The position numbers and the translations under genes were made by a program. From Candidatus Kryptoniota bacterium (GTDB lineage Bacteria > Bacteroidota > Ignavibacteria > Kryptoniales > JAKASW01), in the NCBI GenBank assembly GCA_036567965.1, contig DATCTN010000030.1:186001-250000 (forward strand): 64,000 nucleotides of DNA, read 5' to 3'. Under the pieces are notes generated by a model. That model made no database searches. It saw nothing but the letters and a program-made list of their open reading frames with translations, and was not told the origin of the DNA. Positions 45,676 to 46,664 of this stretch are shown piece by piece; position 1 is the stretch's first letter; every line of letters starts with the position of its first letter.

Positions 45676-45897
45676 GAAGCGAGTGCCGACACAATTTAGA
45701 GTACCTCGTTGCGCATGACCTGATTCAGCGTCTAATTGTGAATCCCAAAACTAAATGCGCTTGGTGATTAGAGATGAGAATTCGTCATGTTCGTCGAGCC
45801 GCCATCTCGGGCTTCAAAAGCGCTCTTTCGTTGGAACGGGATCACTCGGGAACTGGTTACACCCATGATGTAATACAGTCACAGACTTCAGGTATTT

Positions 45898-45929
45898 CTT
45901 GTAGACCTCGCCGCGAAGTATTAAATTTA
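45898..45929 (+). promoter_or_regulatory. tRNA-type promoter in front of the broken tRNA-Ser, CTTG-N20-TAAATTTA
   Basis: CTTG at 45898-45901, 20 nt, TAAATTTA at 45922-45929. The -7 begins 16 nt before the first base of the tRNA-Ser relic. The 220 bp before it (45676-45897) hold nothing I can name. Confidence 0.55.
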
Positions 45930-45937
45930 CACGTTTC

Positions 45938-46016
45938 GGAGAGGTGCGAGAGTGGTTTCCCGAAGGTCCGAAGGACTCCTTTGGAGGACTCCTTCGGAGG
46001 AATCGGCCGGACTCGA
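45938..46016 (+). pseudogene. Broken tRNA-Ser 5' half with a 42-nt hairpin insertion
   Basis: Bases 45938-45957 equal the first 20 nt of the intact tRNA-Ser at 46339. A 42-nt segment (45958-45999) then interrupts the D-loop; it folds into a hairpin, TCCGAAGGA (45967-45975) with TCCTTCGGA (45990-45998). Homology resumes exactly at the next tRNA base (46000-46016, one mismatch) and ends in the anticodon loop. The 3' half is missing, so no functional tRNA can form, yet a good promoter stands in front. Confidence 0.8.
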
Positions 46017-46086
46017 TCTCGAGAAAAGAGCTTGTGGGACGGTGAAGAATGATGTGCGACAAATTCTGTGAAATGATGAGGGAGTT

Positions 46087-46332
46087 GTGTTTTCTACATA
46101 TATTCTCCAAAGCCTGAGAGATTCAAGCTATTATTATGGACAGTGCAAAGATATTGAAAGACGACTTAAAGAACACAATAGCGGCAGATCTCAGTACACG
46201 AAGGGTCATGTGCCGTATGTTCTACTATATTTTGAGGAGTTCGAGACGAGGAAGGAGGCAGCAGCAAGAGAGAGATTCTTCAAGTCGATAGATGGCTACA
46301 TATGGCTGAAGCATAAAGGGATCACGAAATAG
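46087..46332 (+). CDS. Small GIY-YIG nuclease
   Basis: An 81-aa single-domain GIY-YIG endonuclease: the core motif reads TYILQS...YYYGQCKDIERRLKEHN (residues 4-31, shown in part), with Arg25 or Arg26 in the catalytic helix, then EEFETRKEAAARERFFKS with the Glu typical of the family. The second half of the name motif is YYG rather than YIG. These small proteins are frequent in Bacteroidota and some resemble homing endonucleases. GTG start with GAGGGAG very close upstream. It lies between the tRNA-Ser relic and the intact tRNA-Ser, 6 nt before the latter. Confidence 0.88.
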   Translation: MFSTYILQSLRDSSYYYGQCKDIERRLKEHNSGRSQYTKGHVPYVLLYFEEFETRKEAAARERFFKSIDGYIWLKHKGITK

Positions 46333-46338
46333 AAGATT

Positions 46339-46425
46339 GGAGAGGTGCGAGAGTGGTTGAATCGGCCGGTCTCGAAAACCGGAATGCCCTTCGGGGTATC
46401 GAGGGTTCGAATCCCTCCCTCTCCG
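46339..46425 (+). tRNA. tRNA-Ser (anticodon CGA)
   Basis: An 87-nt class II tRNA: acceptor GGAGAGG/CCTCTCC, anticodon stem CCGGT/ACCGG with loop CTCGAAA (anticodon CGA, reads UCG), a long variable arm (TGCCCTTCGGGGTA), T-arm GAGGG-TTCGAAT-CCCTC and discriminator G at 46425. CCA is not encoded. No TTG-N20-TAnnTT promoter is visible just upstream, so it may depend on the promoter at 45898. Confidence 0.97.
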
Positions 46426-46451
46426 CGGCTCTTTTTGGCGAAGGTTTTTCC

Positions 46452-46539
<88 letters not shown>

Positions 46540-46664
46540 ATAGTTTTCATCTCGGTCTGAGGGGTTAGCCGGTAGTAATTTTGTAAATGTGCTCGCCTTG
46601 CAATAATGGACTGGAACTCAAAATAAGTCGTTTTTACCGTCATGAGGGTGAGACAACCGCAATT

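Follow-up and report, generated by a model that had tools for sequence, protein, structure and literature searches.

The closest described system to the locus presented here is SegB of phages T4 and T6, a free-standing GIY-YIG homing endonuclease encoded in a tRNA cluster, which promotes inheritance of the tRNA region and the tandem amplification of a segment containing the nuclease gene and tRNA (PMC2988022, PMC13096335). Common to both are a GIY-YIG gene that is not carried by an intron and its position among tRNA genes. Unlike SegB, the genes described in this work are chromosomal, encode proteins of about 80 amino acids, bring along a duplicated piece of tRNA with hairpin inserts and fall into lineages specific for an isotype; cleavage by their products is predicted from sequence.

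A further system for comparison is that of the genomic islands which integrate into tRNA genes. Such islands duplicate part of the tRNA gene and restore an intact tRNA, and their duplications are known to end in the anticodon loop. The units of the loci described here show the same partial duplication and restored intact tRNA; unlike the islands they are without an integrase, only about 0.3-0.5 kb in size and often in tandem.

On the side of the protein, the UPF0213/YhbQ-like proteins (1YWL, 1ZG2) have the same domain and a similar size; their family names are a sequence description only, and in the literature searched no role was found for them as parasites of tRNA genes, nor for small GIY-YIG proteins at tRNA genes in general. 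The open-access literature searched, which is not proof of absence, contained no earlier description of GIY-YIG cassettes of tRNA genes. On the side of the inserts, the double-hairpin elements and GC clusters of fungal mitochondria are likewise short palindromic insert elements (PMC4478555), and many of the inserts here are two tandem hairpins. In distinction to the fungal elements those described here are bacterial and have a fixed tRNA loop position in relics, and the likeness is one of resemblance only.

The tRNA-Ser locus and its congeners

In the window, i.e. the whole 64,000-nucleotide stretch of DNA analysed in this work, a CTTG at 45898 and TAAATTTA at 45922-45929 are found directly 5' of a tRNA-Ser relic on the plus strand. 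The initial annotation had recognised a tRNA promoter here, and the same elements are conserved in front of the tRNA-Ser pair in congeners; we take 45898-45929 as the original promoter of the tRNA-Ser operon, with a putative assignment of its core. A scan for sigma-70-like promoters, which is unsuited to the promoter type of this host and misses the conserved promoter too, detected none in 45800-46600.

The relic of tRNA-Ser(CGA) which follows on the same strand (45938-46016) is composed of three parts: positions 1-20 of the tRNA (45938-45957), identical to the intact gene; short nested palindromes inserted into the D-loop over 42 nt (45958-45999), whose MFE of -20.7 is below that of all of 100 shuffles; and positions 21-37 (46000-46016), with one mismatch in the alignment, ending in the anticodon loop. 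The alignment score of 60 is far above chance, the maximum of 20 shuffles being 26. A match of 37 bases with one mismatch to the intact gene had been reported before; length and mismatch are correct, but the bases are not contiguous, the insert after base 20 having been overlooked. In a scan of the window for TCC..GGA hairpins 15 were counted, a modest excess over the 3-10 of simulated sequences.

Downstream of the relic lies the gene of an 81 amino acid UPF0213-like GIY-YIG nuclease with a GTG start (46087-46332, plus strand), which matches Pfam PF01541 with an E value of 2e-14. As already described, an intact tRNA-Ser(CGA) begins 6 nt after the end of this ORF (46339-46426, plus strand), as placed by ARAGORN. 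The second gene of the operon, tRNA-Ser(GGA) (46452-46539, plus strand; ARAGORN), is outside the insertion, as seen from the CGA-GGA pair without GIY-YIG gene in G002. The GIY-YIG ORF is the sole content of the unit, in agreement with the absence of an integrase noted earlier.

Twelve genomes of the genus, that of the window among them, were read 5' of the downstream TPR gene; most have kept the promoter and a tRNA-Ser pair. G002 carries tRNA-Ser CGA followed by GGA without a GIY-YIG gene. In G004 an intact tRNA-Ser(CGA) is found directly 3' of the flank TTAAATTTACACGTTTC, the flank which precedes the relic in the window; the relic is thus the original 5' end of the gene, and the intact gene of the window stands behind the insertion. 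This comparison agrees with the proposal that a nuclease element had entered the tRNA gene, leaving the old promoter and 5' half behind and supplying a new 5' half, and it supplies the search of relatives for the unit and for empty sites that had been suggested with it. By comparison with G004 and G002, the intact tRNA-Ser(CGA) at 46339-46426 would then consist of a rebuilt 5' half and the original 3' half. In G007, G010, G006 and G004 a different GIY-YIG gene is located behind one tRNA-Ser, with a 3' relic containing palindromes, which indicates that the same pair was struck more than once. In two of the loci, L060 (G004) and L069 (G006), the neighbouring TPR gene and the tRNA-Ser cluster with its promoter lie on opposite strands.

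Filled sites, empty sites and arrays

For tRNA-Gln a single match was obtained per genome in 13 congeners, and a GIY-YIG gene is present at it in eight and absent in five. Most of the five sites without the gene retain palindrome-bearing remnants. Comparison of the filled site of G009 with the GIY-less site of G012 shows that the flank found 3' of the tRNA in G012 stands after the relic in G009, in keeping with an insertion at this tRNA as well.

Differences in copy number are also seen. A contig of G007 (C53) is 99.9% identical to G002 over about 3 kb and differs from it by one 319-nt unit, one copy against two. The identity of this locus (L031) is observed although the TPR regions of G007 and G002 are only 81.6% identical; C53 is probably a misbinned contig, for which it was rejected as independent evidence of transfer, and the difference in copy number holds regardless. 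Repeat units are about 310-490 nt, too short for an integrase, and arrays are present in the single-contig genomes G177 and G231 as well. In the window genome (L004-L008, contig C20) and in G103 (L249, at least eight GIY-YIG genes) arrays of GIY-YIG genes are interleaved with relics of an initiator-type tRNA-Met; the relics contain hairpins and no intact tRNA is nearby.

The genes are free-standing, located between tRNA copies in intergenic sequence beside the presumed target, with no intron or intein as host. At one locus on the minus strand (L102, oriented 670-916) a group I intron interrupts the anticodon loop of a tRNA-Asn, which is followed by the GIY-YIG gene and a 3' relic of tRNA-Asn; the intron is upstream of the GIY-YIG gene, not around it.

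Linkage to tRNA genes

The frequency of this arrangement was determined in two samples, chosen by similarity to the window protein, so that the proportions apply to its relatives and not to all GIY-YIG proteins; most of the genomes surveyed are draft assemblies. In the first survey 115 of 145 distinct small GIY-YIG domains had a tRNA within 500 nt, on the same strand in 114 of the 115, with the tRNA upstream in 96 and downstream in 18. The second sample was taken from across the phylum, single-contig genomes included; a tRNA was nearby in 60/91, always on the same strand (60/60). UvrC genes, which also encode a GIY-YIG domain and were used as control, had a tRNA nearby in 0/30 cases. A search of named genomes gave a tRNA close by at 12 of 19 loci, the hosts being Bacteroidota, Omnitrophota, Nitrospirota, Verrucomicrobiota and candidate-phyla bacteria.

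A relic across the nuclease gene was detected in 82 of 106 tRNA-GIY pairs of the first sample, above shuffled controls, and in 47 of 59 pairs of the second (46 on a rerun with other shuffles). The initial annotation would have been contradicted by the same arrangement at unrelated tRNAs of relatives without a 5' duplication; the outcome was the opposite, both samples together showing the partial copy in 128-129 of 165 pairs, belonging to many isotypes. Where the tRNA is upstream the relic extends to the tRNA 3' end (94/98), and where it is downstream, as in the window, the relic begins at the tRNA 5' end (30/30); restoration of the missing 3' part would be the commoner form, and that of the 5' part, as in the window, the rarer. 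The truncated end of the relic is usually the side facing the nuclease gene. A relic complete distally and truncated towards the nuclease gene is what insertion with restoration predicts.

The position of the truncation is less regular. Boundaries in the anticodon loop had been called typical of integration at tRNAs, and they are indeed frequent: of the 30 relics in window orientation, 18 end between -10 and +5 relative to the first base of the anticodon and the others further on, so that there is no rule. Over all relics the boundaries vary widely and define no single insertion point, which counts against a homing cassette. The homologs without a nearby tRNA (30/145 and 31/91), some located between relics in arrays and others not, also speak against it.

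Target specificity

A tree of 215 nucleases, in which each of 143 loci is represented by one labelled row, requires 43 changes of tRNA isotype, compared with at least 89 in free shuffles and at least 78 in shuffles within genera. Given a short alignment, many unresolved forks and the lack of independence between related loci, the shuffles serve as a guide and not as an exact probability. Restricted to the first sample, again at one row per locus, the count is 34 changes against at least 54 in shuffles within genera. For 99 of the 143 loci, with 17.3 expected, the closest relative in another genus shares the isotype, and 11 of the 13 nearest labelled relatives of the window nuclease are at tRNA-Ser genes. 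The nuclease tree tracks the tRNA isotype rather than the host. The clades of Ala, Pro(GGG) and Met include both orientations. With relatives at other tRNAs and each lineage having its own tRNA, the unit looks like a very small selfish element resident in genes of essential RNAs.

The site occupied is not always a tRNA gene. In three species of one genus of another family (G113, L231; G104, L232; G208, L233) a GIY-YIG gene is found within the RNase P RNA gene, of which each genome has a single match. The Rfam match begins only at the end of the nuclease gene. By manual reading the nuclease gene comes after the 5' strands of P1 and P2 and is enclosed by a long complementary stem, which apparently places it in the P3 loop. 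Five congeners with empty sites (L266-L270) have an ordinary short P3.

These data bear on the explanation in which the nuclease plays no role in its own spread: ordinary recombination would duplicate the tRNA, and a nuclease gene caught between the copies would be kept there by expression from the tRNA promoter. The gene does lie nearly always in the direction of the tRNA, and tandem arrays and shared tRNA ends are a substrate for recombination. Such docking, however, predicts neither that nuclease lineages follow an isotype across genera nor that independent insertions recur at one single-copy tRNA, and leaves the gene inside the RNase P RNA unexplained; we regard it as unlikely.

Hairpin inserts

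The relics contain 114 distinct inserts of at least 10 nt. Twenty-nine of these share exactly one position, which lies between C56 and R57 of the T-loop at a distance of 18 nt from the tRNA 3' end; of the 29, twelve are exactly 22 nt and four are 30 nt long. Several 22-nt inserts fold as two 11-nt hairpins. Further inserts are found in the D-loop and in the anticodon loop. The 11-mer TCCCGAAGGGA, related to the insert of the window, has 46 copies in the genome, compared with one for the reversed control, and only one of 20 palindrome loci examined holds a GIY-YIG gene.

Copies of TCCCGAAGGGA are dispersed in the window genome, some as inverted pairs of 22 nt; several are within a repeat common to L137, L138, L141, L142 and L145, and others are in the nuclease-less tRNA relics L132 and L149. 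In L040 and L113 pairs of hairpin inserts flank a tRNA stem, with outer arms which look complementary (GGGGTAAA and GTTTACCCC in L040).

The inserts may possibly destroy the target in the displaced copy, may reduce recombination between the two tRNA copies, or may be separate mobile elements which favour tRNA loops. The nuclease could also be their means of movement: double hairpins of about 22 or 30 nt would be mobile units put into the loops of RNA genes, and the duplication of the tRNA would preserve the cell. The presence of 29 of the inserts at a single site, with recurring lengths of 22 and 30 nt, and the many genomic copies of one palindrome are in favour of this. The rarity of GIY-YIG genes at palindrome loci and the variation of hairpin sequences between lineages argue against it, and no sequence indicates how a GIY-YIG enzyme would insert DNA. 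Mobilisation of palindromes by the nuclease seems to us quite improbable.

The nuclease and its family

The nearest relatives of solved structure of the window nuclease are the UPF0213 proteins 1YWL and 1ZG2. The protein has the domain with the catalytic Tyr, Arg and Glu of the GIY-YIG superfamily, and all conserved family columns (Y4, Y15, G17, R25, H29, E61 and K65) are present in it; each of these columns is conserved in 120-128 of the 128 sequences compared. Most pairs of the tRNA-Gln clade with estimable dS give a dN/dS of about 0.05-0.16, with dS near saturation, which corresponds to purifying selection. No match was obtained in NCBIfam, in the PADLOC library of defence systems or in the PHROGs phage families, and phage relatives are only distant ones. 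The window genome has ten homologs, the window copy and nine more, most of which adjoin tRNAs or tRNA relics, and at least one homolog is present in 45 of 61 genomes (the window genome and 60 relatives).

Purifying selection would also be expected if a function for the host, e.g. control of tRNA gene dosage or defence, retained the nuclease at tRNA genes. A precedent is phage SegB, whose amplification of a tRNA gene overcomes a defence system (PMC13096335). Such a function does not fit the patchy distribution in congeners, with decayed copies and empty sites, nor the missing match in the defence library, and we consider it very unlikely. A remnant of an integrase-driven island, for which tRNA duplication with an anticodon-loop boundary is known, was rejected as an origin, with hardly any probability left to it, since an integrase is absent and the unit, which in many independent cases contains the nuclease gene alone and is repeated whole in tandem arrays, is too small, and since the nuclease itself follows the target.

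Discussion

We conclude that the locus is probably a copy of a widespread, free-standing, tRNA-specific nuclease cassette of the homing type, in which the carried tRNA sequence rebuilds the gene that was entered. The cassette would be composed of a small UPF0213-type GIY-YIG gene and a piece of its resident tRNA gene. The nuclease would cut one particular tRNA gene, and the break would be repaired from a copy already bearing the cassette. The cassette would thereby supply the missing 5' part, as in the window, or the 3' part, and since an intact tRNA is rebuilt the host would survive; the displaced piece would be left as the relic across the nuclease gene. Both copies of the tRNA may serve as built-in homology arms, making possible both entry into the same tRNA gene of unrelated genomes and tandem expansion. 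The nuclease gene, oriented as the tRNA, probably uses the tRNA promoter, and in the window synthesis of the rebuilt tRNA would require read-through of the nuclease gene. Homing and mobility are, as is this co-transcription, deduced from the arrangement of the genes. The filled and empty sites, the tandem arrays, the conservation of the catalytic residues and the low dN/dS fit an active selfish element.

The main weakness of this homing cassette lies in the intact tRNA next to the nuclease gene: it has the presumed target sequence and should be cut too, unless recognition extends beyond the tRNA. The cassette also leaves the hairpin inserts in the relics unaccounted for. A broader proposal, to which we give somewhat less than an even chance, is that there is a large family of tiny homing cassettes in bacterial chromosomes, each lineage tied to the gene of a single essential RNA, be it one tRNA isotype or the RNase P RNA, in which the carried part of the target would act as homology arm and as repair patch, permitting entry into the same gene of any genome without death of the host, and in which the hairpin inserts would disarm the displaced copy.

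The genomes searched commonly encode small GIY-YIG proteins. The question raised is how an element reliant on cutting an essential tRNA gene spares the adjacent intact copy. If the genes of these proteins are tRNA-specific homing cassettes, they would be among the smallest autonomous selfish elements, would explain recurring tRNA duplications and pseudo-tRNAs, and would provide a natural collection of nucleases whose targets are related yet distinct.
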